Under the pieces are notes generated by a model. It did no database searches and had not been told where the DNA came from. It saw only the letters and a program-made list of their open reading frames with translations. Of a stretch of DNA of 64,000 nucleotides, positions 3 to 62,384 are shown one piece after another. This DNA comes from Janibacter cremeus (GTDB lineage Bacteria; Actinomycetota; Actinomycetes; Actinomycetales; Dermatophilaceae): NCBI RefSeq assembly GCF_029395675.1, contig NZ_CP115184.1, forward strand, positions 1,116,001-1,180,000. Reading direction: 5' to 3'. The translations under genes were made by a program, and so were the position numbers. Numbering within the stretch: the first letter of the stretch is position 1; every line of letters starts with the position of its first letter.

Positions 3-3000
3 TCAGCCGGCCTTCTTGGCCCGCCTGGCCGCTGCACCGGCAGCACTGGAGACCTCGGCCTTCTTCGTGGCCTGGGCGGCGCTGCGAGGGGCCTTCTTGG
101 TGGGCTTCCTCGCGGCCTTCTTCCGCGCTCCCTTCCCGGGGAGGGCGGGGGTCTCCTCCTCGACGAGCTCGCCGATGACCGGGGTGGTGTCCGACTTCGC
201 CAGCACGGGGGCGAGGAACTGCCCGGTGTAGGAGTCCGGGGAGGCGGCCACCTCCTCCGGGGTGCCGGTGGCCACCACTCGGCCGCCCCCGTCACCGCCC
301 TCGGGGCCCATGTCGACGATCCAGTCGGCGCTCTTGACGACGTCGAGGTTGTGCTCGATGACCAGGACGCTGTTGCCCTTGTCGACGAGTCCCTGCAGGA
401 CGAGCAGGAGCTTGCGGATGTCCTCGAAGTGCAGACCGGTGGTCGGCTCGTCGAGCACGTAGATGGTGCGGCCGTTGGAGCGCTTCTGCAGCTCGGACGC
501 CAGCTTCACCCGCTGCGCCTCGCCGCCGGAGAGGGTCGTGGCGGGCTGCCCGAGGCGCACGTACCCCAGACCCACCGCGTTGAGCGTCTTCATGTGTCGC
601 GCGATCGCCGGGACCGCGGCGAAGAAGTCCTCCGCCTCCTCGATCGGCATGTCGAGCACCTCGGCGATGTTCTTGCCCTTGAAGTGCACCTCCAGCGTCT
701 CGCGGTTGTAGCGGGCGCCGTGGCACACCTCGCACGGGACGTAGACGTCGGGCAGGAAGTTCATCTCGATCTTCAGCGTCCCGTCGCCGGAGCACGCATC
801 GCACCGCCCGCCCTTGACGTTGAAGGAGAAACGGCCGGGCTGGTACCCACGCACCTTGGCCTCGCTCGTCTCGGCGAAGAGGCGGCGCACGTGGTCGAAC
901 ACGCCCGTGTACGTCGCCGGGTTCGACCGCGGCGTCCGACCGATCGGGCTCTGGTCGACGTGGACCACCTTGTCGAGGTGGTCCAGCCCCGTCACCGTCT
1001 TGTGCCGACCGGGCACCTGCCGCGCGCCGTTGAGCTTGTTGGCCAGCACGCGGTAGAGGATGTCGTTGACGAGCGTGGACTTGCCCGAGCCGGACACACC
1101 GGTGATCGCGATGAAGTTACCGAGCGGGAAGGCGACCTCGATGTCGTGCAGGTTGTGCTCGCGCGCTCCCTTGACGGTCAGCTCCCGACCGGGCCGCTGC
1201 GGCCGGCGGGTCGCCGGCAGCGGGATCTCCAGCTCACCGGCCAGGTAGCGCCCGGTCGCCGAGCGCTCGTTGGTCAGCAGCTCCGAGAGCGGCCCCGAGT
1301 GCACGACGTCGCCGCCGTGCTCGCCGGCACCGGGGCCGATGTCGACGACCCAGTCGGACGAGGCGATCGTGTCCTCGTCGTGCTCGACGACGATGAGGGT
1401 GTTGCCCAGGTCGCGCAGTCGGGTCAGGGTCTCGATGAGGCGGTGGTTGTCCCGCTGGTGCAGTCCGATGCTCGGCTCGTCGAGGACGTAGAGGACCCCG
1501 ACGAGGCCGGACCCGATCTGGGTGGCCAGCCGGATGCGCTGGGCCTCACCGCCGGACAGCGTCCCGGCGGCACGGGAGAGCGAGAGGTACTCCAGGCCCA
1601 CGTCGAGGAGGAAACCGAGCCGGGCGTTGATCTCCTTGATCACCTGCTCGGCGATCTGCAGCTCCCGGTCGGTGAAGTCGACGGTCCCCAGGAAGCCCGC
1701 GGCCCGCGCGATGGACATGGACGAGACGTCGGCGATGCTGTGGCCCCCGACGAGGACGGCCAGGGACTCCGGCTTCAGCCGGGTCCCCTTGCACGTGGGG
1801 CACGGGATCTCGCGCATGTAACCCTCGTAGCGCTCCCGGCTCCAGTCCGAGTCCGTCTCCAGGTGCCGACGCTTCACGAAGGGGATGACCCCCTCGAAGC
1901 CCGTGCTGTAGGCGCGCTCGCGACCGAAACGGTTGCGGTAGCGCACGTGCACCTTGTGCTTGTGGCCGTGGAGCAGGGCCCCGCGGGCACGCTCCGGCAG
2001 CGCCCGCCACGGGGTGTCCATGTCGAAGCCGAGGTCGTCGCCGAGGGCGGCCATCGTGCGCTGGAAGTACTGGGCCGACTGGGTCCCCTTCGCCCACGGG
2101 GCGATCGCCCCCTCGCCGAGGCTGAGGTCGTCGTCCGGGACCACGAGCTCGGGGTCGACCTCCAGCTCGGTGCCCAGACCGGTGCACACCGGGCAGGCGC
2201 CGAAGGGGGAGTTGAAGGAGAACGAGCGCGGCTCGATCTCGTCGATGTCGAGGGGGTGGTCGTTCGGGCAGGCCATCGTCTCCGAGTAGCGACGCTGGCG
2301 CTGCGGGTCGTCCTCCGCCAGGTCGACGTAGTCGATGACGACGACGCCCCCGGCCAGACCCAGCGCGGTCTCGACCGAGTCGGTCAGGCGCTGCTTGTTC
2401 GCCCGGTCCTCCGCCCCCTTCGCCACGAGCCGGTCGACGACCACGTCGATGGTGTGCTTGACCTGCTTCTCCAGCGTCGGCGGCTCCGAGAGGGAGATCA
2501 CCTCGCCGTCGACGAGGGCGCGGCTGTACCCCTTGGTCCGCAGCTCGTCGAAGAGGTCGACGAACTCACCCTTGCGGGCGCGCACCACCGGGGCGAGCAC
2601 CTGGAAACGGGTGCGCTCCGGCAGCTCGAGCAGCCGGTCGACGATCTGCTGCGGGCTCTGCCGGGTGATGGGCTCGCCGCAAACGGGGCAGTGCGGGCGA
2701 CCCACGCGGGCGAAGAGCAGGCGGAGGTAGTCGTGGACCTCGGTGATCGTGCCGACGGTCGAGCGCGGGTTGCGGTTCGTCGACTTCTGGTCGATGGAGA
2801 CGGCCGGCGAGAGTCCCTCGATGAAGTCGACGTCGGGCTTGTCCATCTGCCCGAGGAACTGCCGGGCGTAGGCGGACAGCGACTCGACGTAGCGACGCTG
2901 GCCCTCGGCGAAGATGGTGTCGAAGGCGAGCGACGACTTGCCCGACCCGGAGAGGCCGGTGAAGACCACGAGCGCGTCCCGTGGGATGTCGATGTGGATG

Positions 3001-3080
3001 TTCTTGAGGTTGTGCTCGCGGGCCCCCTGGACGACGATCCGGTCGTGCAGTCGGGAACCAGCGGCCTTGGCAGCAGTCAC
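3..3080 (-). CDS. uvrA: UvrA, excinuclease ABC subunit A
   Basis: ATPase subunit of the UvrABC nucleotide-excision repair complex; it finds bulky DNA lesions and loads UvrB. Visible parts: a first Walker A (GLSGSGKSS, about residues 42-50), the CPVC zinc-binding insertion, a first ABC signature [12 protein letters not shown] near 508, a second Walker A (GVSGSGKST) near 660, a second zinc module (CDAC...CEVC) near 760-785 and a second signature near 850. The length is 1025 residues, slightly long for the family because of a Lys/Ala-rich C-terminal tail of about 40 residues. I chose GTG at 3080 rather than the longer upstream ATG (3110), because a TAAGGT -10 box lies exactly 7 bases before it, giving a leaderless mRNA. 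The divergent neighbour is a GH15 enzyme. The stop lies at the window edge, so the gene is complete. Confidence 0.97.
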
Positions 3081-3087
3081 CCACCAC

Positions 3088-3093
3088 ACCTTA
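3088..3093 (-). promoter_or_regulatory. -10 box of leaderless uvrA promoter
   Basis: TAAGGT on the minus strand, 7 bases upstream of the uvrA GTG. TANNNT spaced this way puts the transcription start on the start codon. No convincing -35 is visible. Confidence 0.6.
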
Positions 3094-3141
3094 GGTGCCG
3101 CCCCTGACAACCCACGCCCGCCTCCCGGCGACCGGACCGCC

Positions 3142-6563: not shown

Positions 6564-6601
6564 CGAAGGGGGGCCGGTCACCGCGCGGTGACCGGCCCCC
6601 C
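6564..6601 (+). terminator. Perfect 34-base palindromic terminator
   Basis: From 6568 to 6601 the sequence is a perfect inverted repeat, 17+17 bases with centre CGCGCG, between the convergent EamA and TerC genes. It would work in both directions. There is no U-tract, as is common in high-GC actinobacteria. The left side begins with the CGAAGGGGG 9-mer (6564-6572), but the right side lacks the TTCG partner, unlike the other three terminators here. Confidence 0.8.
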
Positions 6602-10310: not shown

Positions 10311-11509
10311 CAGGAGTCGCCGCGCGGTGGTGTCCACCCGGTCTCGCGCGCCCAGGCCTCCAGACGCGCGTGGATGCCGTCGAACCACGGCTCCTTGGCC
10401 GCGGCGTACTCTCCGCGGGAGCGACCCGACGTCGCGAGCCGCTCCTTCTCCGCGCGGTACTCGGCTCGCGCACCGGGCTCGGCGCGCAGCCAGTCCCGGA
10501 CGAGCAGCGCCCACCGCCACCCCGGGGACCCGACCTCCCGCACGTGCACGTGGACCGGGACGGCCGGGTCACACCCCCGGTGGTACCGCTTGGGCCAGGG
10601 CGCGCCCCCCTTCGGGTTGTCCTGCCGGACGTCCTCCCGGCGCGGCCATCCGCCCTCGGCCGTGGCCCGCAGGAAGTCCGCCCCGTCGGCCACCTCGAGG
10701 GACTCGACGCCGACCTGCAGGTCGATGATCGGCTTGGCGTACATCGGCACCGAGGTCGAGCCGATGTGGTCGACGGTGACGGCGAGGTCACCGAGTCGGT
10801 GTCGCAGGCGGGCGATCTCCCGCGCGGCCTGCGCCGCCCACGCGGGATCCGGCTCGGTCAGGACGAGCTCGTCGGGAGCGGTCACCGGACGCATCGCGGC
10901 GAGGTTGTCGGCGAAGGGGGCCAGCCGCTCCTCCCAGAGCCGGTCCACCGCCGTCAGGAGGGCCCCGGGCGTGCCGTTGTTGTCGAGCAGGACGTCGGCG
11001 ACCGCCCGTCGCTCCTCGTCGTCCGCCTGCGCCGCCACCCGTGAGCGGGCCTCGTGCTCCGGTGTGCCGCGCAGCTCGACGAGACGCCGCACCCGCTCCT
11101 CCTCCGCGGTGTCGACGACGACGACGAGGTGGTACTCCCCCGCCATCCGCTTCTCGACGAGCAGCGGCATGTCGTGCACCGCGACCCGGCTGCCCCCCGA
11201 CTCCGCTGCCTCGAGCCGCTGAGCCGTGCGCTCCCAGATGGCCGGGTGGGTGATGCCCTCCAGTGCCGCCAGCGCCTCCGGGTCACCGAAGACCACCCGG
11301 CCCAGCGCCGGACGGTCCAGTGCCCCCTTCGCGTCGAAGACCTGGTCCCCGAAACGCGCCCGGATCAGCTCCAGCGCCGGCTCCCCCGGCTCGACCACCT
11401 CCCGCGCGATGAGGTCGGCGTCCACGACGACCGCCCCGAGCTCGGCCAGACGCCTCGAGACGGTCGACTTGCCGGAACCGATCCCACCGGTGAGGCCCAC
11501 GCGCAGCAT
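10310..11509 (-). CDS. coaE: Dephospho-CoA kinase with C-terminal GrpB domain
   Basis: 399 residues. The N-terminal half (about 1-200) is dephospho-CoA kinase, the last step of CoA synthesis: P-loop GLTGGIGSGKST at residues 5-16, the DADLIAREV block and the lid region. The C-terminal half (about 210-385) is a GrpB/UPF0157 domain of the nucleotidyltransferase superfamily (VDHIGSTSVPMYAKPIIDLQ). The same fusion is known in mycobacterial CoaE, which is about this length. ATG at 11509 is fixed by the P-loop position and by a TAGGAT -10 box 7 bases upstream. Much longer upstream reading-frame extensions run antisense through the transporter gene and were discarded. Confidence 0.95.
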   Translation of the reverse strand: MLRVGLTGGIGSGKSTVSRRLAELGAVVVDADLIAREVVEPGEPALELIRARFGDQVFDAKGALDRPALGRVVFGDPEALAALEGITHPAIWERTAQRLEAAESGGSRVAVHDMPLLVEKRMAGEYHLVVVVDTAEEERVRRLVELRGTPEHEARSRVAAQADDEERRAVADVLLDNNGTPGALLTAVDRLWEERLAPFADNLAAMRPVTAPDELVLTEPDPAWAAQAAREIARLRHRLGDLAVTVDHIGSTSVPMYAKPIIDLQVGVESLEVADGADFLRATAEGGWPRREDVRQDNPKGGAPWPKRYHRGCDPAVPVHVHVREVGSPGWRWALLVRDWLRAEPGARAEYRAEKERLATSGRSRGEYAAAKEPWFDGIHARLEAWARETGWTPPRGDS

Positions 11510-12878: not shown

Positions 12879-12919
12879 CGAAGGGGGCGCCGCACCGGTT
12901 CGGTGCGACGCCCCCTTCG
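12879..12919. terminator. Bidirectional terminator built from inverted CGAAGGGGG copies
   Basis: Between the convergent transporter and rpsA. The outer stem is CGAAGGGGGCG against CGCCCCCTTCG with a small bulge; an inner stem CCGCACCG/CGGTGCG closes on TT. Both arms end in the over-represented 9-mer. There is no U-tract. Confidence 0.8.
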
Positions 12920-14580: not shown

Positions 14581-15411
14581 ATGGGTGATGGCTGGTCCGA
14601 CGGGACGAACTCGGTGGCACGCCGGGAGAGCGGGCAGGCCGAGACGGTCACCGCGAACCGGTCCTGGTGGGACCGTGAGGCCGAGGACTACCTCGACGAG
14701 CACGGCGACTTCCTCGGCGACGCCGAGCTGGTGTGGGGGCCCGAGGGGTGGACGGAGTCGCAGCTGCGCGTGCTCGGTCCGCCCGAGGTCCTGCGTGGCG
14801 CCGACGTGCTGGAGTTCGGGGGCGGTGCGGCCCAGGGTGGGCGGTGGTGCGCCGCGCAGGGCGCACGCGTGGTCTCCAGCGACCTGTCGGGCGGGATGCT
14901 GCGCACCGCACGGCGGATCGATGCCCGCTCCCCCGGTCCCGCGCCGGCGCTGCTGCAGGCCGACGCCACACGCCTGGGTCTGGCCGACTCGAGCTTCGAC
15001 ATCGTCTTCTCCGCCTACGGCGCGACCCCCTTCGTCGCGGACAGCGCCGGGCTCATGGTCGAGCTGGCTCGGGTCCTGCGGCCCGGTGGCACGCTCGCCT
15101 TCTCCACCTCGCACCCGATCCGCTGGGCCTTCCCCGACGTGCCCGGGCCGGAGGGCCTGACGGCCACGGCCTCGTACTTCGACGAGACCCCCTACGTCGA
15201 GGACGAAGGGGGTCGGGCCGGTTACGTCGAGCACCACCGCACGATGGGCCACCGGATCGCCGAGATCCTCGACGCCGGGCTGGTGCTGCGCGCGGTGCTC
15301 GAGCCGGAGTGGCCGGCCGACAACACCGCGGTGTGGGGAGGCTGGTCGCCGTTGCGCGGGCAGCACTTCCCGGGGACGGTCATCTTCGTGGCCACGCGCC
15401 CGCTCGGATGA
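14581..15411 (+). CDS. Class I SAM-dependent methyltransferase
   Basis: 276 residues. A Rossmann-type methyltransferase with motif I VLEFGGGAAQGGRW (about 75-88), VVSSDLSGGML (motif II), ATPFVADS and ARVLRPGGTLAF (motif IV/post). It begins MGDGWSDGTNSVARR and carries the NRSWWDREAEDYLDEHG segment seen in a common actinobacterial methyltransferase family of unknown substrate. Soluble. It stands alone, divergent from rpsA and convergent with the DUF3068 gene, with a leaderless promoter. Confidence 0.88.
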   Translation: MGDGWSDGTNSVARRESGQAETVTANRSWWDREAEDYLDEHGDFLGDAELVWGPEGWTESQLRVLGPPEVLRGADVLEFGGGAAQGGRWCAAQGARVVSSDLSGGMLRTARRIDARSPGPAPALLQADATRLGLADSSFDIVFSAYGATPFVADSAGLMVELARVLRPGGTLAFSTSHPIRWAFPDVPGPEGLTATASYFDETPYVEDEGGRAGYVEHHRTMGHRIAEILDAGLVLRAVLEPEWPADNTAVWGGWSPLRGQHFPGTVIFVATRPLG

Positions 15412-17139: not shown

Positions 17140-17751
17140 TCAGCCCTGCTCCTGCATCGCGTGGTCGACCGCCTCGCACCAGGTGTGCGCCCACAGGAGG
17201 TGGACCTCCTGGATCCGCGGTGTCTCCTGCGACGGCACGACGAGGAGGTGGTCGGCGTGGTCGCCCAGGCCGGCCCCCTTCGCCCCGGTCATGAGGATCG
17301 TGACGAGACCGCGTGAGCGCGCCTCCGCGAGCGCGGCGACGATGTTGGGACTGCTGCCCGAGGTGGACATCGCGAGGAGGACGTCCCCGGGTCGGCCGAA
17401 GGCCTGCACCCCCCGCAGGAACACCTGGTCGAAGCCGTAGTCGTTGCCGATCGCGGTCAGCGAGGAGTGCGACTCGGCCAGGCTGATGGCCGGCAGCGGG
17501 TGACGGTCGGCGACGCACTTGCCGAGGAACTCCGCGGCGACGTGGCTGGAGATCGCGGCGCTGCCGCCGTTGCCGGCGACGAGGAGGGTCCGCCCCGAGC
17601 CCAGGGCCGTCAGCACCGCCCGGCCGGCCGCGTGGGCGCGGTCGCGCAGGTCGGGGGCCGCGACCCGGGCCGCCAGCTCGCCCCACGCCGCGATCCCGGC
17701 GTCGAGCCGTGCCGCGACGTCGTCGCTCGCCGTGGTGTCGTCGGTGGTCAT
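17140..17751 (-). CDS. gmhA: Sedoheptulose 7-phosphate isomerase (SIS domain)
   Basis: 203 residues. SIS-domain fold with GNGGSAA (sugar-phosphate binding) and STSGSSPN, and the C-terminal QEVHLLWAHTWCEAVD helix with the catalytic His. It converts sedoheptulose 7-phosphate to D-glycero-D-manno-heptose 7-phosphate in the cytosol. ATG overlaps the upstream kinase TGA (ATGA), and the phosphatase follows. The three adjacent steps make the heptose assignment firm compared with other SIS isomerases. Confidence 0.92.
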   Translation of the reverse strand: MTTDDTTASDDVAARLDAGIAAWGELAARVAAPDLRDRAHAAGRAVLTALGSGRTLLVAGNGGSAAISSHVAAEFLGKCVADRHPLPAISLAESHSSLTAIGNDYGFDQVFLRGVQAFGRPGDVLLAMSTSGSSPNIVAALAEARSRGLVTILMTGAKGAGLGDHADHLLVVPSQETPRIQEVHLLWAHTWCEAVDHAMQEQG

Positions 17752-18791
17752 TGCCTGCCCTTCCACGTGGTGACGCCCTGCTTGGTGAAGGTGAACTCCG
17801 AGACCGACAGGCCCAGGTCGATCAGGGCGTCGGCGACGACGTGGCGCCGCTCGAACTCGCAGATGAAGATCAGGTGGCCGCCACCCCCGGCTCCCGTGAC
17901 CTTGCCCCCGAGCGCGCCGCTGTGCATGGCACGGTCGACGGCCCGGGTGATGAGCGGGGTGGTGATGCGCGAGGACATCCGCTGCTTCTCGCGCCACGCC
18001 TCGCCGAGCAGGTGGCCGACCTCGTCGACCCGCCCCCTCAGGAGCGCGACGCGCATCGCGTCGGCGAGGTCGCGCTGCGCCCGCAGCCCGGCGACGGCGT
18101 CGACGTTGCCGGTCTCGTAGCGGGCGACCTGGTCCTCGATGATGTGGTCGCTGACGCGGGTGCGCCCGGTGTACGCGAGGAGCATGTTGTGCTCGAGCTC
18201 GTGCACGGTGTCGGGGCGGACGCGCAGGGGGTTGACGACGACCTGGCCGTCGGTGCGGAACTCCATGAAGTTGAAGCCGCCGAAGGCGGCGGCGTACTGG
18301 TCCTGGGAGCCACCGGGGATCGCGAGGTCCTCGCGCTCGAGTCGGTAGGCGAGCTCCGCGATCTCGTACGGACCCAGGTCGAGGCCGCAGTGGCGGCCGA
18401 CGAGGTCGATGACGGCCACCATCACGGCACTCGAGCTGCCCAGGCCCGAGCCGGGCGGGGCGTTGGTGTGCAGGAAGAGGTCGAAGCCGTCGGAGGCCAT
18501 CGCCCCCTCGAGCGTCATGATCCTCGCGATCGCCGCCTTGGGCAGGTCCAGCTCGCCGTCGAGCTCGAGCGGTGCGCCGACGTCGTAGCCGATCGATGTG
18601 CCGTAGTCGTGCGACTCGACGGTGATGTGCCCGTCATCGCGCGGACGCAGGGTCGCGTAGGCGTAGCTGCCGATCGTCGCGCTGAGGACCGCGCCCCCTT
18701 CGCGCTCCGGGAAGGGGGCCACGTCGGAGCCGCCGCCGGCGAAGCTGACCCGTAGGGGCGCACGGGCACGCAGAACCGGGCGCACGGTCAT
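17748..18791 (-). CDS. hddA: D-glycero-D-manno-heptose 7-phosphate kinase (GHMP family)
   Basis: 347 residues. N-terminal RAPLRVSFAGGGSDVAPF, the GHMP ATP loop PPGSGLGSSSA near 126-136, and the C-terminal KVTGAGGGGHLIF are typical of HddA-type kinases. It should phosphorylate heptose 7-phosphate at C1 to the alpha-1,7-bisphosphate, committing to the GDP-heptose branch. ATG at 18791 follows AGGGAG. It leads the hddA-gmhA-gmhB operon, with a TACTAT-like -10 about 40 bases upstream, divergent from the acyltransferase. Similar genes exist in M. tuberculosis (Rv0113-Rv0115). Confidence 0.9.
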   Translation of the reverse strand: MTVRPVLRARAPLRVSFAGGGSDVAPFPEREGGAVLSATIGSYAYATLRPRDDGHITVESHDYGTSIGYDVGAPLELDGELDLPKAAIARIMTLEGAMASDGFDLFLHTNAPPGSGLGSSSAVMVAVIDLVGRHCGLDLGPYEIAELAYRLEREDLAIPGGSQDQYAAAFGGFNFMEFRTDGQVVVNPLRVRPDTVHELEHNMLLAYTGRTRVSDHIIEDQVARYETGNVDAVAGLRAQRDLADAMRVALLRGRVDEVGHLLGEAWREKQRMSSRITTPLITRAVDRAMHSGALGGKVTGAGGGGHLIFICEFERRHVVADALIDLGLSVSEFTFTKQGVTTWKGRQ

Positions 18792-18837: not shown

Positions 18838-20048
18838 GTGACGACATCGACACGCCCCCGCACGCCCGGCCACGCATCCTCGGCCTCGACCTGCTCCGCG
18901 CGGTCGCGGCCTGGCTCGTCCTGCTGTCCCACGTCGCCTTCTGGACGGGGAAGAGCAGCGAGGGCGTCGTCGGCGGGCTCGCCGCCCGGGGTGAGCTCGG
19001 GGTCGCGGTCTTCTTCGCCCTGTCGGCCTTCCTGCTGTCCGCCCCCTTCGTCCGGCGGGCGCTGGGACGACCCGCCCGGTGGTCGCCCGGCACCTACCTC
19101 GTCCGCCGAGCGGCCCGGATCATGCCGGCCTACCTGCTCGCCCTGGCCGGTGTCGTCACCGCGGCCGCGCTGCTCGGTGGGGCCGCGGCGGACGTGCTCG
19201 ACGTCCCGACCGTGCTCGTCCACCTCGTCATCGGCCAGGGGTGGACGGGCCGCACCTTCCCGTCGTTCACCCAGACGTGGAGCCTGACGACCGAGGTCAC
19301 CTTCTACCTGCTCCTCCCCCTCGTCGCCCTCCTGCTGGCCCGTCCGACGAAGGGAGCCGCGCCCACCGCGACGGCCCGGCGCCTGCTCGTGGCCTGCGGT
19401 GTCGTCGCCGTCGTGGGGCTGCTCGGCCAGGGCTTCACCGGTGTGCTGCCCGACCCCGACCCCGCAGGGGTCCTGGGCACCTCGGTGGCCGGGCACGCCG
19501 CGTGGTTCGCCCTCGGGACCGCCGTCACGGTCGTCATCGAGGCCGAGCAGGCGGGCCACCCCCTCACCCGGCACCCCGCCGTGGAGTTCCTGCGCACGAG
19601 TCCCGGGACCCTGCTCGTCCTCGCCGGTGTGCTCTGGCTGGTCGCGTCCACGGACGTGGCCGGGCCCCGGGGGCTGGAGCCGGCGAGCGGTGCCGAGTCG
19701 GTCGCGGCCGAGGCCCTCTACGGGCTCGTCGCCGGGTGCCTGCTGCTCGCGGCGACGACCCGCGGCCTGACGGAGCTGCTCACCGACTCACCGCTCGCCG
19801 GGCCGGCCCGGTGGCTCGGCGACACCTCCTACGCCGTCTTCCTCTGGCACGTCCTCGTGCTCCAGGTCAGCTTCGCGCTGCTGGACCTGCAGCTCTTCGC
19901 CGCCCCCTTCGTCCTCACCCTGGTGCTGACCACGGTCCTCAGTCTGGGTCTGGCGCACCTGTCGTGGAGCCTCGTGGAGCGCCCGGTGCTGGCCCTGGCC
20001 CATCGACGCCGGCACGCACCAGTGCCGCAGCCAGCACCCCGAGCGTGA
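18838..20048 (+). CDS. Acyltransferase 3 family membrane protein, apparent frameshift near its start
   Basis: About 400 residues. An acyltransferase-3 protein with RILGLDLLRAVAAWLVLLSHV at the N-terminus, GELGVAVFFALSAFLLSAPF, about ten helices and LSWSLVERPVLALAHRR at the end; it O-acylates envelope sugars, and an Rv0228-like protein is expected in this position. The conserved reading frame (from about 18858) has no upstream start codon: it opens after a stop at 18822. The only plausible start is GTG at 18838, with TACCGA 7 bases before it, in the neighbouring frame. One extra C in the C5 run at 18855-18859 would join the two frames. This is either a sequencing error, a mutation or slippage. 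A later ATG at 19122 would lose the conserved first third. Confidence 0.75.
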
Positions 20049-23000
20049 GGGCCCCCAGGGCCTGCGCCACCCAGGCCCCGGTCGACTGACGCTCCGCGAC
20101 ACCGAGGACGGACAGTCCCACCCCGGCGCCGGCGAGCACCAGCGCCACCGCGATCGCCCGGAACCGCACGGGCACGAGCGCCCCCACCACGGCCGTGAGC
20201 ACGCCGAGGGGACCGGCCACGATGACCCCGACGGCCGCCGCGGTCAGGACACCGAGCACGATCGGACCCCGTCCGGGCCCCGCCGGCCCGACCGGCCGCG
20301 CGGTCGGGGTCGTCGGGGTCGCCCGCGGGAGGGCGGGGACGGACCGCCCGCGCCGGTGCAGGACCAGCTCCACGGCCCCCCACAGCAGGAGGAGCACGGT
20401 CGCGAGGGCGCCGACGGCCAGGGCAGATCGGTGGGTGCCGTTCGGCGTGAACTCGACGCTGACCGTCGTCGCCGGCCCCTCGGGCAGGACGAACGCCTGC
20501 CGCCACCCGTCGACGGTGGTCGCCCGCAGGCGCTCGCCGTCGGCGGTGGCCCGCCAGCCCTCGTTGGCGCCCTGGGTGAGCACGAGCAGCGAACGCTCCC
20601 CCGGCCCGACGTCGAGGGTCCAGCTGCCGGCGTGCTCGCGGTCGCTGTCCACGGTCCGCGCCCCGGTGACCTCGGGGGTGGTCCAGTCCCGGGGGACCAG
20701 GGCGACCCGCTCGGCCACGAGTCCGGGGACGGCGACGGCCGTGACCGTCCCGTCGCCGGCAGGCAGGTCACCGCAGGCCGTGGCAGGGACGGCCTCGCCG
20801 GCGATGAGGGACTGCCGTGGTGCGCTGAGGGAGAGGCCGATGCGACCGTCCTCCCGTCCGACGGCGCCCGCCTGCGAGCAGTCCAACCGGACCTGCTCCT
20901 GCGGTCCGTCGGTCCCCGGCACGCTCACCTCCGGTGCCGACCACGCGGCCAACCCGGGAGGCCGGGAGAAGGTCAGGGCGAGGTGCCGCGTCCGCTGCCT
21001 CGGGATCGTCAGCGTGGTCCCGCCGGGCAGCACGTGGCGCTCGGAGTCCGTCGCCACGGTGACCCGCCCGACGGCCCGGTCGAGGCGGATGGTCCCGACC
21101 TCCTGCTCGGATCCCAGGTCGATGGCCAGGACGGGGTCGGCCACCCCGGACGCGGGGGTCCACCGGGTGTCCGGGTCGCCGTCGAGAGCGGCCACGGGCC
21201 AGTGCTCGAGGTCCGAGGACGAGGCGAAGGCGTCCGGAAGGGTGCTGCCGTGCAACCGCCACGGTGCAGCGACCAGGTCCTGCCCGGCCGCACCGGGCCG
21301 GATGCGCACGGTGGCCGAGATCTGCGTCCTCGGGAGCTGCCCGACACGCCGCACGAGGCTGCTCGGGTCCTCCCCCGCGGTGAGGTCGGCGCCGGCCCGC
21401 GGGTCCCGGGTGAGCAGGACCGGGCCGCTGCCCCCGGGCAGCTCGAGACCCGTGCCGAGCTCCGGCCCGCCGCCGAGCTCGATCTCACGCACGCCCACCG
21501 GGCGGGCGTCGCCATCGTCATCCTCCGGCTGCGTGCTCAGCTCGATCGTGACCTCGTCGCGCTCGGTGCCGTCGAGGGGGACGCGCCAGGTCATCGAGTC
21601 CTCCGGGCGGGTCCCCTCCTCACCGTCGACGGTGACCGAGACGAGGCGTCCGAGGTCGCCGCCCCACGCCTCGTGGACGAGCACCTCGTGCGGGGAGGCG
21701 GATTCGTCGAGGTGGAGGGTGACCCGCTGCGTCGCGGCGCCGTCACCACTGACCCAGGCGGTCTCCGGGTCACCGTCGACGAGCGCCGGGGCGCCCTCCC
21801 CCGCACTCCCCGGGGCGGGGGCGAAGGGGGATGCGGCACTCGAGCTGGTGGCGATCCCGGACAGGCCGGTCCAGAAGCGGGTCGTCCACCCCCGGGTCGC
21901 GTCCTCTCCGTGCGTCGCGGGACCGGTGAGCGCCCGGCTGCCCACGAGCGCGGGCCGGGCGTCCGCGGCGGTCAGGGTCGGACCGCTGCCACCGGCCGGT
22001 GGGCGGCCGGAGTTGAGCGCCTGCCAGCGAAGGGTGTCGGTGCGCACCTCGGCCGGCCGGTCCGCGGTGGGTTGCCGCATCACCGACTCGGGGTCGAGGA
22101 GGCCCGCCGCGACGAGGGAGAACCACCCATCGGGCGATGCCGCCGCCGTGACCACGGTGTCGATCGGGACCGCGGTCGCCGGTGACACCGGCTCCTCGAG
22201 CCGCCAGATGCTGATCTCCTCGCTGCCCTCCCCGTGGGACCACGTGCGCGTGAGCCCCGGGGACGCCTCGAGGGTGGCGGCCACCTGTCGCGGGTCCACG
22301 GTCGCGAGGTCCGCCCTCAGCCCTCCGCGCACGACGACGCGCGAGATCCCCATCCGGCGCAGGCCCGCGGCCAGCTGCGGCTGGCTGCGCCCGGTGGCCG
22401 CGAGCGCGTCCACGTGGTCGAGCACGCGGGTGGCCCCCGGGTGCCCCAGCGGTGCGGCGGCCCGGACGAGGACCGGCGAGGACGCCAGGGCGCGCAGCGG
22501 CTCGTCGGTGACGCGGCCCCAGGTGAAGTCGGCCGTGCGCGCTCCGGGCAGGACCAGGGTCGTCCCTCCGTCCTCCTCGGCCAGGGCATCCACCCGCGCG
22601 GCGGTCTGCGACCAGGTCGCGGGGATGCCACCCGGCGCCCAGGCGTCACCGACCCGCCCCTGCCACACCGGCGACAGCGCCCCGACGAGGGCCAGGACGG
22701 TGGTGACCACGACGGCCTGCCGGACGACGGGCCCGGCCCCCCGGTCGACCCGGGTCGCCCAGTGGCTCAGCAGACCGACGCCGACGGCGACCGGCAGCCG
22801 CACGAGCAGGTCGGCCTTGTGGACGTTGCGGAAGGGGGCGAGCGGCCCGTCCAGAAGGTTCTGGACCGGCTCGGCGAGGATCCCCGAGGCGGCGCCCGTC
22901 CGGCCCATCGTCATGGTGACCGCGCCCAGGAGGACCAGCACGAGGGCCCACCGCGTGAGGTGGACCGAGCCCCCTTCGTCCTCGGTCGTGACCGGCTCGG

Positions 23001-25680: not shown

Positions 25681-26931
25681 ATGACGACGAGCAGGACCTC
25701 GCCGAAGACCCCCCTTCGGGTGCTGTACCTGTCCTGGCGCGACCGCGAGAACCCGGAAGCGGGCGGGGCCGAGACCTTCACCGAGCGGACCTCCGAGGTC
25801 CTTACCCGGCAGGGCCACGAGGTGACGATCTTCACCGCCTCCTACCCCGGTGCCAGCCCACGCACCCGGCACGGTGACGTGCAGGTCGTCCGCCGCGGCT
25901 CGAAGTTCAGCGTCTACCTGCACGGGATGTGGCACCTCCTGCGGCACGGCCGCGACTACGACATCGTGCTCGACGTGCAGAACGGCGTGCCCTTCTGGTC
26001 ACCGCTGGTGTCGAGGGCCCCGGTCATCAACATCGTCCACCACGTCCACCGGGAGCAGTGGGGTGTCGTGTTCAACGAGTCCGTGGCGCGCCTGGGGTGG
26101 CTCCTGGAGTCGAAGGTCGCCCCCTGGGTCTACCGCAGGAACCGGTACGTGACGGTCTCCAAGTCGACCCGTGACGAGCTCGCGGGCCTGGGCGTCGACC
26201 CCGGCCGGGTCGACCTGGTCTACTCGGGCAACGACCGACCGGAGGACCTGGACCGCTTCGCGGCCATGGAGCGCACCGAGACCCCTTCGATCCTCTTCCT
26301 GGGTCGCCTCGTGCCGCACAAGCACGTCGAGCAGGCCGTCGACATCCTCGCCTCACGGGCGGCGACCCACCCCACTCTCGAGCTGCACGTCGTCGGTGGC
26401 GGCTACTGGGAGGCGGAGATCGCCAAGCACGCCCAGGAGCGTGGTGTGGCCGAGCGCGTCCACCTCCACGGCTTCGTCGACGAGCCGGTCAAGCACGAGC
26501 TGCTGGCCCGCGCGTGGGCCGTCGTCATGCCCTCGCACAAGGAGGGGTGGGGCCTGACGATCGTCGAGGCCGGCCTGCACGGCACCCCGGCCGTCGCCTA
26601 CTCCTTCGCCGGCGGGCCGAGCGAGTCCATCGTGCACGGCCGCACCGGTCTGCTGGCCGACTCGGTCGAGCAGTTCGAGGAGCACGTGATCGACCTCATC
26701 GACGACCCCGTGCTCCGGCGCACCCTGGGCCGCACCGCCCGCCTCTACGCCAGCTCCTTCGACTGGGGCCGCACCGGACGACGTCTGGAGTCGGTGATCG
26801 CGTCCGTCGTCGGCCACGCCGACCGGTACCGCGACGACGTCATCGACCTCGACGCCCTCATCGCCACCCGTCCGCCCGAGGCCGCCGCCGACGGCGCCCA
26901 CGAGGAGGAGCTGGAGGCCATCGCGTCCTGA
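25681..26931 (+). CDS. GT4 family glycosyltransferase (Rv0225-like)
   Basis: 416 residues, GT-B fold. The N-terminal NPEAGGAETFTERTSEVL block binds acceptor; the C-terminal EGWGLTIVE (EX7E motif, near 287-295) and AGGPSESIVHG bind the nucleotide-sugar. Retaining transferase of the GT4 family, cytosolic face of the membrane. ATG at 25681 is preceded by AAGGAGA with good spacing. It is divergent from the methyltransferase-aftD operon. The last 30 residues are acidic. In mycobacteria the equivalent gene lies beside the methyltransferase Rv0224c; donor and acceptor are not predictable. Confidence 0.9.
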   Translation: MTTSRTSPKTPLRVLYLSWRDRENPEAGGAETFTERTSEVLTRQGHEVTIFTASYPGASPRTRHGDVQVVRRGSKFSVYLHGMWHLLRHGRDYDIVLDVQNGVPFWSPLVSRAPVINIVHHVHREQWGVVFNESVARLGWLLESKVAPWVYRRNRYVTVSKSTRDELAGLGVDPGRVDLVYSGNDRPEDLDRFAAMERTETPSILFLGRLVPHKHVEQAVDILASRAATHPTLELHVVGGGYWEAEIAKHAQERGVAERVHLHGFVDEPVKHELLARAWAVVMPSHKEGWGLTIVEAGLHGTPAVAYSFAGGPSESIVHGRTGLLADSVEQFEEHVIDLIDDPVLRRTLGRTARLYASSFDWGRTGRRLESVIASVVGHADRYRDDVIDLDALIATRPPEAAADGAHEEELEAIAS

Positions 26932-26962: not shown

Positions 26963-27000
26963 CGAAGGGGGCCGTCCGCACCGGCGGACGGCCCCCTTCG
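26963..27000. terminator. Bidirectional terminator with perfect 16-bp stem
   Basis: CGAAGGGGGCCGTCCG pairs perfectly with CGGACGGCCCCCTTCG around a 6-base loop, between the convergent GT4 and DUF2613 genes. Each arm ends in the over-represented 9-mer. Confidence 0.85.
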
Positions 27001-33800: not shown

Positions 33801-35192
33801 GTCGGACCGCGTCTGCCCGGGCAGCAGGAGCGCCCGTTGGTTGGGGTCGCCCGTGTCGACGGTGTCAGCGGCCTCCTCCCAGTAGTCGGGGACGTCCAGC
33901 GCCGAGACGTAGAGGTTGCCGGTCACGGCGGGGGCGACGAGGGCGAGCACGGTCGCCGTGCCCAGGGTGCCGACGATCGGTCCACCGCCGGGCCGGCGGA
34001 CCACCGCGGGCACGAGACGGACGAGGGCCCACCCGATCACGAGCGCGAAGGCCAGCGCGAGGCCGGCACCGATCTTGTTGGTGGTCCGGAAGGCGACGAG
34101 CGGCCCGATGTCCTCGAGGGCCCAGCGCAGGACGGCGGCGAAGGGGGACCCGCCGTTGCCCCCCGGGTAGAGCCCGACCATGATCACGGCGACCATGCCG
34201 GTCGCCACCGCCGACAGCCGCGCCAGACGCGTGGGCACCACCCTGAGCGAGAGCAGGGCCAGGGCCGGCCAGAGCATGGTGAGCAGGATGATCACGGCGC
34301 TGGCGAAGTACATGGCGAACTGCGGCAGCCAGGGTCCGGCGTCCCCGGAGCCGTAGTACGACCACAGCCCCAGGCCGCGGAGCACCTCGACGAAGGAGCT
34401 CGTCCGGGCGATCCCGTCGAGGGACTCGGACCCGGCCGCGATCTGGCTGCCCGTCTCGCTGGCGGCAGCGCCCGGGATGAGCCAGTAGAGGGAGACGAGG
34501 ATGACGAAGAGGGCGCTCTTGCCCAGTGCGGCCGCCACCCGGGACCACCGCAGCCCCTGCTCGGCGCGCACGTAGAGGGCCACCGGGATGATCAGCAGGA
34601 GCTGGTAGACGGGGACGACGCCCACGTTCATCCCGCTCATGCCGAAGAAGACCAGCCCGACCGCGGCCGGCCACGCCCAGCCCGAGGGGTCGCGCAGCGA
34701 CTTCGTCACCGCGACGAGCAGCCAGGGCAGCAGTGCCATCGGCAGGGCCACCGCCAGCGTGCTTCCCGCCGCAACGGCGTAGGGGTTGGCGATGTAGGCC
34801 ACACCGGCGAGCAGGCCCGCCCAGACGCCCGCACCGGGCACGAGGGTGCGCAGGAGGCGGTTGGTCCCCCAGGCGGCCAGCGCCCAGAGGATGAGGTGGT
34901 AGACCTTGAAGGCCATCTCGGGGTCGAGACCGATGCCGCGCAGGAGCGCCGTCGTGGCCAGGACCGGCACCAGCCCGACGTTGAAGTTCGGCGACCCGAG
35001 ATAGGGCGAGGAGGTCCAGGCCGACAGGTACCGCGGCAGCGTCTCACCGGGGTTGAGGTAGACCTCTGGTTTGATGTCGGTCTGGAAGACACCCCAGCTG
35101 TTGGCGAAGACGATGACCGCCAGGAGCACGAAGAGGATGACGGAGATCATCCGCACGGAGACCGCGCGGGGTAGCCGGAGCCGGCTGCGCAC
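30894..35192 (-). CDS. Second AftD-like arabinofuranosyltransferase family protein
   Basis: 1432 residues. The N-terminal GT-C core has a single first helix, the lumenal acidic motif TDIKPEVY near 38-45, and about ten more helices up to about 440. Two discoidin-like modules follow (DGDPSTSW near 730 and DGSAETAW near 949). The C-terminus has helices near 1230 and 1330-1410 separated by an acidic Ser-rich cytoplasmic loop. It shares the AftD plan with the 19939 gene but is clearly a different paralogue. GTG at 35192 has GAGGAG 8 bases upstream. It opens the operon with GT2, GT4 and the GT-C-like protein. Confidence 0.82.
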   Translation of the reverse strand: MRSRLRLPRAVSVRMISVILFVLLAVIVFANSWGVFQTDIKPEVYLNPGETLPRYLSAWTSSPYLGSPNFNVGLVPVLATTALLRGIGLDPEMAFKVYHLILWALAAWGTNRLLRTLVPGAGVWAGLLAGVAYIANPYAVAAGSTLAVALPMALLPWLLVAVTKSLRDPSGWAWPAAVGLVFFGMSGMNVGVVPVYQLLLIIPVALYVRAEQGLRWSRVAAALGKSALFVILVSLYWLIPGAAASETGSQIAAGSESLDGIARTSSFVEVLRGLGLWSYYGSGDAGPWLPQFAMYFASAVIILLTMLWPALALLSLRVVPTRLARLSAVATGMVAVIMVGLYPGGNGGSPFAAVLRWALEDIGPLVAFRTTNKIGAGLALAFALVIGWALVRLVPAVVRRPGGGPIVGTLGTATVLALVAPAVTGNLYVSALDVPDYWEEAADTVDTGDPNQRALLLPGQTRSDYRWSPERPDDLPNSLLERDAVIPETVPNTSQWGGNYLAALNSTLQSGTAGSTDVSPFARYLGVDHVLLRHDVEWEDSGGARPAHTAQALSEDEGLQGLRNFGRSGQNMFTRSVPPQSQTEALLPPLQLYGVKDSRGMVRATPATGSVVVAGDAWAIPPMAQQGLLAGSPAMRYAQDLSGEELARLLEQEPRMVLTDTNQRRAAITNRLTANQGAVLPPEEEPAITRALGEAEDQSTLAASGVLVEATSEGGAFFDLPHGMAENAVDGDPSTSWLFGDFRRAEGESLTLRLPQERTLDTVTIDTTALGGVSISSFHLRAGGVTRTVEVDEDGTATLDLGGVSADEVELTVGELQGEGVSLVGVSEIDLGDDDLVAERAIAAPDTFSRLYGDLSADERQTFGTVPLDVLFTRVTNTSDPGDDTETDLSRNFTLPDDRTFELAARVRARGDLELVADRLSGKDDTYRARSSRTYFDSLARRASKAADGSAETAWVPGGDPAEAWWQITGPRRDLSQVTVRQEAGPGDEDDTAWATSATVLVDGEEVATGELRPGRATIELPPGTSGRTVRLRIDELDTSRGERPASFVSIDTGATITGGDTGRPCVTIATIDGEPVRMRPEDPEEIGGTDGHGTPWVGCGEQSLVWGEHRLRPVDDFQLDELSLRDVRGSEVAQEVPSPVVEVERRTFTSAMTVDVGRAQKPYFLSIGQGFDPRWNATLEDGTDLGEPVVVNGYAVGWYVDDLDEHTVHIGYGPQRRANVALVLSGVALLVALAVFFAPLVRRRVSRVRAERASEWGREPAAQPTSSREDDAFLTGDVPGDDPFSRGGTPRASTTEAESGAEVPHRPVTRGLTEVLTQRRGGRRLAVEGALVLGTAAVTGIGGGLAALVVVLLVRRTDPRPGLLITAGAGLVLLSAAVFVLYAALITDTLGTVDADAVKSALVPHHIAGAGLVLAVLGTFMRHDEPEEPDL

Positions 35193-38021: not shown

Positions 38022-38066
38022 CCCGCCGGTCGGGTAATAATGGGGCGCCCCCTTCGGAATCAGGTC

Positions 38067-40016: not shown

Positions 40017-41044
40017 GCCGCACCGACGCCGTGGTCCTCGCCGGCGGCCTGGGCCGACGGATGCACCCGCTCACGCTGGACTGCCCCAAGCCGCTGCTCC
40101 CCGTCGGTCCGTGGACCCTCATGGAGCACCAGGTCGCGGCCCTCGCCCGCGCCGGCGTCGAGCGGATCGTCCTGTCCACCGGGTACCGCCACGACGACTT
40201 CGAGGAGCTCGTCACCGCACTCCGGGCGAAGGGGGTGGACCTCACCACGGTCGTCGAGGACAGCCCCCTGGGCACCGGAGGGGGCCTGCGTGAGGCCCTG
40301 CGGTCCCTGCCCGGGGCGGATGCCGTCATCGTCCTCAACGGGGACCTGCTCACCGGGCACGACCTCGCCGCGCAGGTGGACCTCCTGCGAGCGGCGCCCC
40401 CCACCGTGATCGCCTCGGTCCACGTGCGCACGGTCCCCGACGCCCGGCCGTACGGCAGCGCCCTCGTGGCCGGCGACGGACGCATCACCGCCTTCGTCGA
40501 GAAGTCGGCCACGCCCCCTTCGCCCACGGTCAACGCCGGTACCTACGTCGTGCGCCCCGGGCTGCTGCTCGACGCCGTCCCCGGCACCGGTGTCGCCTCG
40601 CTCGAACGGGACGTCTTCCCCGGGCTCGCGGAGCGGGGCGCCCTGCTCGCCCACCGCGAGGACGCCTACTTCCTCGACGTCGGCTCACCCGCCGCGCTCG
40701 TCGAGGCCACGCGTGACCTCCTGCTCGCCCCGTGGCCCGGCGCGGCACCGACGCCCCGCGGTGAGTTCCTCGCCCTGCCGGGGGCCGACGTCGCACCGGA
40801 CGCCCGACTGTCGGCAGGGACCGTCGTCCACCCGGGCGCGCGCATCGGCCCGGGAGCACGGTTGGAGTCGGCCGTCGTGCTCGCGGGTGCGCGGGTCGAC
40901 GAGGGCGCCGAGGTGGTCCGCTCGGTGGTCGGACGCCACGCCCGCGTCGGCGCCCGCTCCCGGGTCGTGGACACCGCCCTCGGCAGCGGCCAGCAGGTGG
41001 CCCCGCACACGCACCTCACCGACACGGTCCGCCCCGGCGCCTGA
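40013..41044 (+). CDS. Sugar-phosphate nucleotidyltransferase with left-handed beta-helix
   Basis: 343 residues. The N-terminal nucleotidyltransferase domain has VVLAGGLGRRMHPLT and PKPLLPVG, VLNGDLLTG (metal-binding Asp) and VEKSATPP. From about 245 a hexapeptide-repeat beta-helix follows (PDARLSAGTVVHPGARIGPG). It resembles mannose-1-phosphate guanylyltransferases and the HddC enzymes that make GDP-heptose from heptose 1-phosphate. As the only nucleotidyltransferase in the locus, it may complete the hddA-gmhA-gmhB pathway; that is inference, and GDP-mannose synthesis is the main alternative. GTG overlaps the upstream TGA. Confidence 0.85.
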   Translation: MSRTDAVVLAGGLGRRMHPLTLDCPKPLLPVGPWTLMEHQVAALARAGVERIVLSTGYRHDDFEELVTALRAKGVDLTTVVEDSPLGTGGGLREALRSLPGADAVIVLNGDLLTGHDLAAQVDLLRAAPPTVIASVHVRTVPDARPYGSALVAGDGRITAFVEKSATPPSPTVNAGTYVVRPGLLLDAVPGTGVASLERDVFPGLAERGALLAHREDAYFLDVGSPAALVEATRDLLLAPWPGAAPTPRGEFLALPGADVAPDARLSAGTVVHPGARIGPGARLESAVVLAGARVDEGAEVVRSVVGRHARVGARSRVVDTALGSGQQVAPHTHLTDTVRPGA

Positions 41045-49048: not shown

Positions 49049-49089
49049 GGACGAAGGGGGCGCGACCGGCGGGCGCGCCCCCTTCGTCC
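49049..49089. terminator. Terminator downstream of gltD, perfect 16-bp stem
   Basis: GGACGAAGGGGGCGCG pairs with CGCGCCCCCTTCGTCC around a 9-base loop, between the end of gltD and the pyk promoter. Again both arms contain the CGAAGGGGG 9-mer, and there is no U-tract. Confidence 0.85.
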
Positions 49090-50557: not shown

Positions 50558-55106
<4,549 letters not shown>

Positions 55107-57378: not shown

Positions 57379-58181
57379 GCCCGTCCCCGCACGCCTTCCG
57401 TCAGCTCACGGGTGAGGTCGCGCAGCGCGGCCAGCCCCTCCTCGGGGTCGCGGTCGAGCATGGTGCTCACGAGGGCGGACCCGACGATGACCCCGTCGGC
57501 GAAGGCGGCCACCTCCGCGGCCTGGGCGCCGGTGCTGACCCCGAGGCCGACGCACAGCGGCAGGTCCGTGGTCGAGCGCACGCGCGCGACGAGCTCGGCC
57601 GCCGTCCCGCCGACGCTGCCCCGGGCTCCGGTGACACCCATCGTGGAGGCGGTGTAGACGAACCCGGTCGTGGCCTCGGTGACCACGGCGATGCGCTCGG
57701 TGGTCGAGCTCGGCGCGACGAGGAAGATGCGGTCGAGCCCGTGCCGCTCGCTGGCCGCGCGCCACTCGCCCGCCTCCTCCGGGATGAGGTCCGGGGTGAT
57801 GATGCCCGCGCCCCCGGCGGCTGCGAGGTCGGCGGCATAGCGGTCGACGCCCCGACGCAGCACGAGGTTCCAGTAGGACATGACCACCGGCACGGCTCCG
57901 GCCTCCCGGGCCGCCGAGACGGCCCGGAAGACGTCGTCGACGTGGACCCCCTTCGCCAGGGCCTCGGTGGCGGCACGCTGGATGACGGGACCGTCCATGA
58001 CGGGGTCGCTGTAGGGCATGCCGACCTCGATGATGTCGGCGCCGGCCTCGGCCAGGGTGCGCACCGCGTCGATCGAGCCCTCGACGCTCGGGTAGCCGAC
58101 GGGCAGGTAGCCGATGAGGGCGGCGCGGCCCTCCTCGCGGCACCGGGTGAAGACGTCGGCCAGGCCTGCGGCCGCGCTCAT
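57375..58181 (-). CDS. trpA: Tryptophan synthase alpha chain
   Basis: 268 residues. TIM barrel with [12 protein letters not shown], the catalytic Glu in [16 protein letters not shown] (about 49-64) and the catalytic Asp region in LIPEEAGEW, and [10 protein letters not shown] near the phosphate site. It cleaves indole-3-glycerol phosphate to indole, channelled to TrpB. ATG at 58181 overlaps the trpB stop (ATGA). An upstream ATG at 58220 would add a basic run from inside trpB and is rejected. Confidence 0.97.
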
Positions 58182-60216: not shown

Positions 60217-60222
60217 GCCCCA

Positions 60223-60813: not shown

Positions 60814-62384
60814 CGGGTCGACCTGCGGACGGGACGCATCGCACGGGCGGCGGCGACCGCGGCCAGGGCCGAGCCGGCCTTGTGCACCGTCTCCTCCTGC
60901 TCCAGCACCGGGACGGAGTCCGCGACGATCCCGGCGCCGGCCTGCACGTGCGCGACGCCGTCCTTGATCAGGGCGGTGCGGATGGCGATCGCCATGTCCA
61001 TGTCACCGTGGAAGTCGAGGTAGCCGACCACTCCGCCGTAGACGCCCCGTCGACTGCGCTCGTACTTCTCGATCAGCTGGAGCGCCCGGGGCTTCGGCGC
61101 CCCGGACAGGGTCCCGGCGGGGAAGGTGGCGACGAGGACGTCGAAGGCCGACACCCCCTTCGCCATCTCGCCGACGAGGGTGGACTCGAGGTGGATCACG
61201 TGGCTGTAGCGGCGCAGGTTCATGAACTCGACGCAGTCGACGGTGCCCGCGGCGCACACCTTCTGCAGGTCGTTGCGGCCCAGGTCGACGAGCATGACGT
61301 GCTCGGAGCGCTCCTTGGGGTCGCCGATGAGGTCCTCCTCGAGCCGGAGGTCCTGCTCGGGCGTCTTCCCGCGGGGGCGGGTCCCGGCGATCGGATGGGT
61401 GATCGCCCGTCGTCCGGTCACCTTCACCAGCGCCTCGGGCGAGGAGCCGACGACGTCGTAGGTGGACCCGTCCGGGTGCGGCAGCCGCACGAAGTACATG
61501 TACGGGCTCGGGTTGGAGCGCCGCAGCGCCCGGTAGACGTCGAGCCCGTCGACGGGGCACGGGGTGGAGAAGCGCTGCGAGAGGACGACCTGGAAGACCT
61601 CACCGGCCCGGATGTCCTCCTTGGCCTCCTCGACGATCTCCTCGAAGCGCTCGACGCTGACGTCGCTCTCGACCTCGGTGCGGGCACGCGCCGCCACCTC
61701 GTGGTCGACCGTCGCGACGGTGCTCTCCGCCGGCTCCGCGAGACGCTCGGCCATCGCGTCGATACGGGCCACCGCGTCCCGCCAGGCCTCCTCGACGCGC
61801 TGGTCGGTGTCGTCGTAGTTGATCGCGTTGGCCACGAGCAGCAGCGAGCCGTCGCTGTGGTCGAGCACGGCCACGTCCGTGGCAAGCACCAGACCGAGCT
61901 CCGGGATCCCGAGGACGTCGGGCAGCTCGCTGGGGACCTTCTCCCACCGGCGGACCGCGTCGTAGGAGACCGCGCCGACCATCCCGCTGGTGAAGGGTGG
62001 CAGGCCGTCGACGGGGTCGGTGGAGAGAGCCTCGAGGGTGGCGCGCAGGGCGGCGGTCGGATCACCGTCGGTCGGGACCCCGACGGGCGGCTCGCCGATC
62101 CAGTGGGCCCGACCGTCCTGCTCGGTGAGCGTCGCGCGGCTCTGCGCACCGACGATCGACCAGCGCGACCACACCCCACCGTGCTCGGCCGACTCGAGCA
62201 GGAAGGTCCCCGGCGCGCCGCCACCGAGCTTGCGGTAGACGCCGACCGGTGTCTCGCCGTCGGCGATGAGTCGGCGCACGACCGGCACCACCCGCCGGTC
62301 ACGGGCGAGGACGGTGAAGGCGTCCAGGTCGGGCCAGGTCCGGCCCGGGGCGAGGTCGGGGATCTCGGTGCGGGGCGCACTCAT
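60810..62384 (-). CDS. trpE: Anthranilate synthase component I
   Basis: 524 residues. The chorismate-binding domain has [52 protein letters not shown] and [16 protein letters not shown]. It makes anthranilate from chorismate with ammonia from TrpG. Neither trpG nor trpD is in the window. ATG overlaps the hisI stop (ATGA), joining the his and trp genes in one message. Confidence 0.96.

Follow-up and report, generated by a model that had tools for sequence, protein, structure and literature searches.

What is the nine-base word CGAAGGGGG, which recurs throughout a 64,000-nucleotide stretch (the window) of the 3,495,359-base contig of Janibacter cremeus, and why is it so common there? The original prediction, made from the letters of the window, counted 31 copies, 13 on the plus and 18 on the minus strand; this count is exact and its coordinates match ours. 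It offered, unranked, an uptake sequence, a Chi-like recombination site, a methylation site and a structural mark as possible explanations. We find that CGAAGGGGG is a genome-wide, strand-balanced and clade-bound word with soft flanks, and that a second word in the same family behaves in a like manner. The uptake option fits these observations best, and CGAAGGGGG is probably the DNA uptake sequence used by the Janibacter/Marihabitans clade. Preferential uptake of motif-bearing DNA is the defining property of such sequences, and this role is one that we infer. Below, G-numbers denote genomes (G000 is the window's own) and L-numbers denote sampled stretches.

Abundance of CGAAGGGGG in the Janibacter genome

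The 31 copies in the window compare with a mean of 1.0 and a maximum of 3 in 100 dinucleotide shuffles. A whole-genome count, proposed earlier as a check, finds 818 forward and 769 reverse copies (1,587 in all), an over-representation larger than the window could show; the control word, which is the same 9-mer read backwards, is present 15 + 19 = 34 times. Word-frequency statistics were obtained from a 464-kb sample of G000 (20 stretches plus the window), in which CGAAGGGGG is the commonest 9-mer, with 197 copies against 7.9–13.6 expected under Markov models of orders 0–4. Its observed/expected ratio at order 4 (14.6, with 13.5 expected) is the highest among 9-mers that have at least 20 copies. 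Two tests had been named on which the excess might have failed. Markov models of orders 5, 6 and 7 expect 56, 138 and 177 copies, but these values lie near the observed count because CGAAGGGGG itself feeds the sub-words of such models, so that the order 6–7 comparison, although run, is uninformative. The codon-preserving comparison is informative, and the excess survives it: in 402 G000 genes (called with a simple codon-usage script) there are 150 copies, against a mean of 24.2 (standard deviation 4.6, maximum 35) in 100 synonymous shuffles. The flanks of the core are soft; among 196 copies position -2 is G in 73%, position -1 is A or G in 84%, and the base after the core is other than G in 86%. 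Uptake sequences occur hundreds to thousands of times in a genome, well beyond what is expected, and so does CGAAGGGGG.

Clade range and a second word in the family

Our family scan covered 186 genomes, 19 from the Janibacter/Marihabitans clade and 167 others. CGAAGGGGG is raised in all 16 Janibacter genomes (396–948 per strand) and in all three genomes of the genus of J. melonis and Marihabitans (651–985 per strand); it is raised in no other genome of the 167 (3–40 per strand). This motif-1 clade includes Janibacter corallicola NBRC 107790 (G178), J. anophelis NBRC 107843 (G344), J. melonis NBRC107855 (G066) and Marihabitans asiaticum DSM 18935 (G373). A wider sample of 297 genomes of the order has CGAAGGGGG raised in five, all of them Janibacter or the J. 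melonis/Marihabitans genus, and its 273 genomes from outside the family have at most 60 copies per strand, with the highest values in 8-Mb genomes. All 18 Janibacter and Marihabitans rows form one clade (SH-aLRT 100) in a ComEC tree of 79 rows made by a quick method; being the tree of a single gene, and a competence gene, it is a guide and not a species tree.

From other genera of the family, 20 stretches were fetched, each about 20 kb long. Two were too short to use; in six of the other 18 a k-mer screen returned a different word, GTATGCCG, as the top spread-out word. We call GTATGCCG raised where a genome has at least 340 copies in total and 2.5 times the backward control, a threshold that was set after viewing the table. 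By this measure 109 of the 167 other genomes of the family scan are raised; they come from 30 of 51 genera, and their forward/reverse ratios span 0.89–1.13. It is intermediate in 11 and low in 47. The maximum is 2,376 copies per strand, and G224 has 1,268/1,273. Some raised genomes have high backward controls, for example G301 and G303 (ratio 2.9), and their excess is modest. GTATGCCG is raised in none of the 19 Janibacter-clade genomes (2–23 per strand), and it reaches at most 94 per strand in the 273 other-family genomes, where those near 94 have equally high controls. Among individual loci (4–16 kb each), those from Phycicoccus elongatus, Terrabacter, Humibacillus and Intrasporangium carry many copies and those from Ornithinimicrobium, Serinicoccus and Arsenicicoccus carry fewer, while several further Phycicoccus records have no copy. 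In genes called with the Janibacter codon model, copies of GTATGCCG exceed synonymous shuffles (for example 31 against 1.4 in G017 and 20 against 1.7 in G224), and its neighbouring copies are opposite in orientation in 151 of 239 cases (p 0.00006) from 28 loci chosen as copy-rich; these loci include orthologous regions and are therefore not fully independent. The two words have no 3-base words in common on either strand. Clade-bound dialects are a feature of uptake sequences, and these words are distributed in that way.

Many lineages of the family have neither word. All 12 genomes of the genus g10, including Nostocoides sp. Soil756 (G235), have neither, and no clear third word emerged from the few screened genomes without CGAAGGGGG or GTATGCCG. 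The best lead for a third dialect, a weak one, is GACCCGCTC in G235, with 14 copies against 2.4 expected in 68 kb (L082, L230, L231, L267). Two further words were seen in single stretches: GTATGGCG has 12 copies beside 9 of GTATGCCG in 20 kb of G320 (L256) and is possibly a sub-dialect, and CTACTTGTTT, present 11 times in 20 kb of G371 (L262) against 0.01 expected and falling in five 1-kb bins, is a repeat family. Genomes G394, G302 and G366 do not have raised GTATGCCG while their congeners hold hundreds to thousands of copies, which makes them natural contrasts in a search for a receptor. The simplest history that we infer is one in which CGAAGGGGG took the place of an older GTATGCCG along the Janibacter stem, with GTATGCCG lost elsewhere.

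Placement, orientation and turnover of the sites

The copies of CGAAGGGGG in the window are as follows (window coordinates, strand, setting):

2201..2209, plus strand, antisense within gene 3-3089(-)
2414..2422, minus strand, sense within gene 3-3089(-)
6564..6572, plus strand, convergent gap; its final G's start a strong hairpin, -33.7 kcal/mol
10606..10614, minus strand, within called gene
10912..10920, plus strand, within called gene
11323..11331, minus strand, within called gene
12879..12919, inverted pair (12879+, 12911-), convergent gap; single hairpin, -37.8 kcal/mol, z -5.4
15026..15034, minus strand, within called gene
15204..15212, plus strand, within called gene
17274..17282, minus strand, within called gene
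18694..18702, minus strand, within called gene
19042..19050, minus strand, outside called genes; uncalled gene possible
19903..19911, minus strand, outside called genes; uncalled gene possible
21822..21830, plus strand, within called gene
22970..22978, minus strand, within called gene
25710..25718, minus strand, divergent gap
26963..27000, inverted pair (26963+, 26992-), convergent gap; single hairpin, -42.6 kcal/mol, z -7.8
28211..28219, plus strand, within called gene
33629..33637, plus strand, within called gene
34139..34147, plus strand, within called gene
38048..38056, minus strand, extreme start of called gene; start site uncertain
40227..40235, plus strand, within called gene
40514..40522, minus strand, within called gene
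49052..49086, inverted pair (49052+, 49078-), 3' of gene 49100-50557(-); single hairpin, -41.0 kcal/mol, z -6.2
50785..50793, plus strand, within called gene
52201..52209, minus strand, within called gene
57947..57955, minus strand, within called gene
61154..61162, minus strand, within called gene

The three inverted pairs, at -37.8 to -42.6 kcal/mol, each beat all of 200 shuffles, and all three lie downstream of called genes. For placement in general we used an 864-kb sample of G000 (40 stretches plus the window; stretch L170 duplicates 16.8 kb of another stretch and adds no sites there). It has 370 copies, 183 of them forward. Called genes hold 278 of these (0.368 per kb) and the remaining 92 lie outside at 0.847 per kb, a 2.3-fold higher density; by type of gap there are 1.86 per kb in convergent, 0.81 in divergent and 0.74 in tandem gaps. 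Close inverted pairs account for 32 of the 370 copies, and such paired copies downstream of genes have probably been co-opted as terminators. Genic copies, a greater density between genes and some terminator inverted pairs are the placement known for uptake sequences, and all are present here. Strong clustering is not seen over the 40 stretches (mean 8.5, variance 12.2 copies).

There is no chromosomal orientation bias, which is also the case for uptake sequences. The mapping of strand bias relative to origin and terminus that had been suggested was carried out as far as quarters of the sampled chromosome, whose strand splits are balanced (37/32, 34/42, 42/49 and 57/46; the origin was not located). 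Adjacent copies tend to alternate in orientation. Among neighbours more than 60 bases apart, 188 of 310 in G000 (p 0.0002), 43 of 68 in G190 (p 0.04) and 20 of 34 in G343, which has few copies, are oppositely oriented, and pairs within the same gene in G000 and G190 together number 51 opposite and 19 same. Same-orientation neighbours less than 1 kb apart number 46 in G000 against 65.9 (standard deviation 5.0) in orientation shuffles, none of 1,000 of which was as low; part of this deficit is due to the close inverted pairs. No clear alternation extends to the second to fourth neighbour. The alternation of nearest neighbours suggests that uptake may be polar from a site.

Sites turn over between related genomes. 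By position, 23 of 52 reference copies are kept, against 17% for 9-mers of like G+C content (18 pairwise comparisons of aligned regions, which are not independent), and 26 of 73 unshared copies differ from their partner by one base. Such partial sharing suits a drifting population of labels that are gained and lost, and not fixed regulatory sites.

The duplicate within the sample is an observation in its own right: L020:1-16822 and L170:3179-20000 (G000:C1:1-16822 and 90679-107500) are 100% identical over at least 16.8 kb and lie about 90.7 kb apart. The stretch is partly low in G+C, transposase and polysaccharide genes were suggested in it by eye, and it is either a recent duplication or an assembly artefact.

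Competence and pilus machinery

The original prediction proposed a look for comEA, comEC and pilin genes, and G000 has these: a ComEA protein (271 amino acids, with SLBB and helix-hairpin-helix domains) is encoded next to ComEC (797 amino acids), and there are two Tad pilus clusters, tad-1 and tad-2, one with a DUF4244 Flp-like pilin (L087) and one with TadE/TadG-like small pilins (L088). Gene order and length suggest two more Tad-like clusters, L086 and L089. ComEC and the DUF4244 pilin are both present in 19 of the 19 motif-1 genomes, so the competence machinery that an uptake sequence would need is in place. As an association of machinery with motif, ComEC and DUF4244 were dropped, as over the 186 genomes they do not discriminate.

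Candidate receptors were compared among the tad loci. A secreted-looking 439-amino-acid protein with Big_9, GmrSD_C and lamin-tail (LTD) domains (L088:2803-4122) ends the G000 tad-2 operon; it was dropped as receptor, having no BLAST match in the other tad loci compared. The tad-1 TadE and TadF proteins looked specific to motif-1 genomes by BLAST, but with a more sensitive comparison TadE was also seen, in more diverged form, in motif-1-free relatives, as was TadF in some of them, and the two remain weak candidates.

We propose that CGAAGGGGG would serve as a self-label for a predicted cell-surface receptor of the competence machinery. DNA that carries the motif would be preferred, being bound outside the cell by a receptor associated with the Flp/Tad pilus or linked to the wall, handed to ComEA, passed as a single strand through ComEC and recombined into the chromosome. 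Since alleles that carry the motif would enter more often, such biased uptake (molecular drive) would let it accumulate wherever it is tolerated. The older GTATGCCG dialect would have given way to CGAAGGGGG when the specificity of the receptor changed on the Janibacter stem.

Comparison with known systems

The DNA uptake sequences (DUS) of the Neisseriaceae are, like CGAAGGGGG, short words with very many copies per genome, some of which lie in terminators (PMC13020248), as some CGAAGGGGG pairs probably do. Their dialects follow the family tree (PMC3630211) and so resemble the pattern of CGAAGGGGG and GTATGCCG across the family, but the neisserial dialects share a 3-base core (PMC3630211) and our two words have none. 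The neisserial receptor ComP is of the type IV prepilin class, whereas the Janibacter family is Gram-positive and its pilus genes are of the Flp/Tad kind. We do not file CGAAGGGGG as a ComP-type DUS because no type IV prepilin was found in 15 of the 16 genomes tested. The uptake signal sequences (USS) of the Pasteurellaceae, for which the type IV minor pilin ComN has been proposed as receptor (PMC12616744), differ from CGAAGGGGG in word, phylum and type of pilus. The nearest published parallel that we found to the alternation of CGAAGGGGG neighbours is that USS are evenly spaced, as PMC1939737 relates with attribution to Karlin and co-workers. In Haemophilus influenzae data, uptake was reported not to depend significantly on where the strongest site lay or on its orientation (PMC1939737), which argues against polar uptake there.

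The machinery is most like that of Micrococcus luteus, whose transformation requires two tad clusters and which has comEA-comEC (PMC4322843); the comEA-comEC pair and two Tad clusters of G000 resemble that set, as judged by eye, and the L087 and L088 pilins resemble, again by eye, the M. luteus pilin N-termini printed in PMC6370729. The words "uptake sequence" are absent from the main text of PMC4322843 and of PMC8467076. A 2026 survey of the commonest terminator words reports uptake sequences in Neisseriaceae and Pasteurellaceae (PMC13020248), and no actinobacterial uptake sequence was reported among the matches listed in our literature search, whose scope left most subscription literature outside.

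Weighing the explanations

Several observations weigh against CGAAGGGGG being an uptake sequence. Known uptake sequences favour one orientation in reading frames (PMC2346458), and CGAAGGGGG lacks this bias (74 sense and 76 antisense copies in the 402 genes, 140 and 138 in the 864-kb sample), although the bias is general in those families and does not define the mechanism. The machinery does not predict the motif: ComEC is present in 180 and DUF4244 in 172 of the 186 genomes, with either motif or none, and it therefore permits the uptake reading and does not prove it. Type IV prepilins (PF07963) were found in just one of 16 genomes examined, which was not G000. In J. melonis G066, the genome richest in CGAAGGGGG (1,939 copies), tad-2 looks degenerate, with a partial small-pilin match that contains an internal stop (L271, G066:C3:541515-541823) and no recognised tad-2-type TadA; the motif could persist after its machinery has decayed, or tad-2 may be dispensable. 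No tad-2-type TadA was recognised in the GTATGCCG-rich G257 and G224 either, no receptor for CGAAGGGGG was found among the candidates compared, and no paper joining Janibacter and natural transformation was found in the literature searched. The density of GTATGCCG outside genes is lower than, or about equal to, that within them in three or four of seven genome samples; the two densities are, for example, 0.13 against 0.45 in G034 and 2.48 against 0.81 in G438.

The thinness of CGAAGGGGG in low-G+C DNA speaks for the uptake reading. In 2-kb windows of evenly placed stretches there are 2 copies in 36 kb with G+C below 64% and 186 in 288 kb with G+C of at least 72%, but low G+C also lowers the number of chance copies, about 2-fold as compared with the roughly 12-fold fall in CGAAGGGGG density. 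Beside integrases the depletion is not uniform. We looked at six integrase neighbourhoods, from 17 integrase matches in three genomes (the islands were not independently delimited). Three are nearly empty of CGAAGGGGG (G000 554-583 kb, G000 1,940-1,951 kb and G190 40-60 kb), one is partly depleted (G190 at about 1.89 Mb) and two are undepleted (G000 at about 2.97 and 3.07 Mb).

Other explanations have to account for the same facts. Chi and KOPS (FtsK orienting polar sequences) are, like CGAAGGGGG, over-represented short words, and a signal that acts within the cell in recombination, repair or chromosome organisation (Chi-like, KOPS-like or a site for a nucleoid protein) and is kept by selection would agree with the very high chromosomal density of CGAAGGGGG and its retention through two genera; Chi words, moreover, differ among taxa. 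But Chi and KOPS are skewed with replication, and CGAAGGGGG has balanced strands both genome-wide and in each sampled quarter. The original prediction had argued from balanced orientation in the window against a KOPS-like signal, an argument that the genome-wide 818/769 upholds and that tells equally against its Chi-like option; we reject a strand-skewed recombination or segregation signal on this balance. Intracellular action of other kinds is hard to reconcile with the alternation of neighbours, the high density in convergent gaps, the thinness in low-G+C DNA and the replacement of CGAAGGGGG by an unrelated word in sister genera, and we think a signal of this class unlikely. It is very improbable that CGAAGGGGG is the site recognised by a restriction-modification system, a BREX-like system or some other system of epigenetic marking or defence, which was the methylation option of the original prediction. 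The word is short and asymmetric, as a methylation target could be, but sites of this kind are not normally some 15-fold over-represented and the systems usually turn over between strains, whereas the same word is found in 19 genomes of two genera; neither that excess nor the unrelated GTATGCCG of the sister genera would be explained, and the hairpin pairing and alternation do not follow.

That CGAAGGGGG arises merely as a side effect of hairpins in terminators, of codon usage or of mutation bias can hardly be credited at all, even if some copies do form hairpins downstream of genes and its density climbs with local G+C. Close inverted pairs hold few copies, so that the structural mark considered earlier covers only a minority of them, and most lie in called genes, where synonymous shuffling leaves 24 of 150; this genic majority and the shuffle rule out an origin in hairpins alone or codons alone, and the 167 family relatives without raised CGAAGGGGG tell against the by-product reading as well. 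Biased transfer by another route (a conjugative TraB/FtsK-like pump, or packaging in vesicles or particles) could in principle give rise to the same accumulation, and with it to dialects, strand balance and a scarcity of sites in foreign DNA. It is set against the presence of transformation genes, ComEC and the DUF4244 pilin, in every motif-1 genome, and we hold it to be improbable. An uptake sequence read by the competence machinery is the likely explanation.

Implications for the family

Uptake sequences have so far been described mainly in two Gram-negative families, the Neisseriaceae and the Pasteurellaceae. Whether there is a whole Gram-positive family with uptake sequences read by Flp/Tad pili, in which an ancestral GTATGCCG was wholly replaced by CGAAGGGGG and the alternation records a polar, one-sided uptake, seems to us about evenly balanced. 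If CGAAGGGGG and GTATGCCG are indeed uptake sequences, self-recognition in transformation would have had a separate origin in Gram-positive bacteria, one that involved a different class of pilus, the alternation signal would bear on the direction of uptake, and the two unrelated dialects, together with the many lineages that have neither, would provide a comparative set for the study of the receptor and of dialect replacement.

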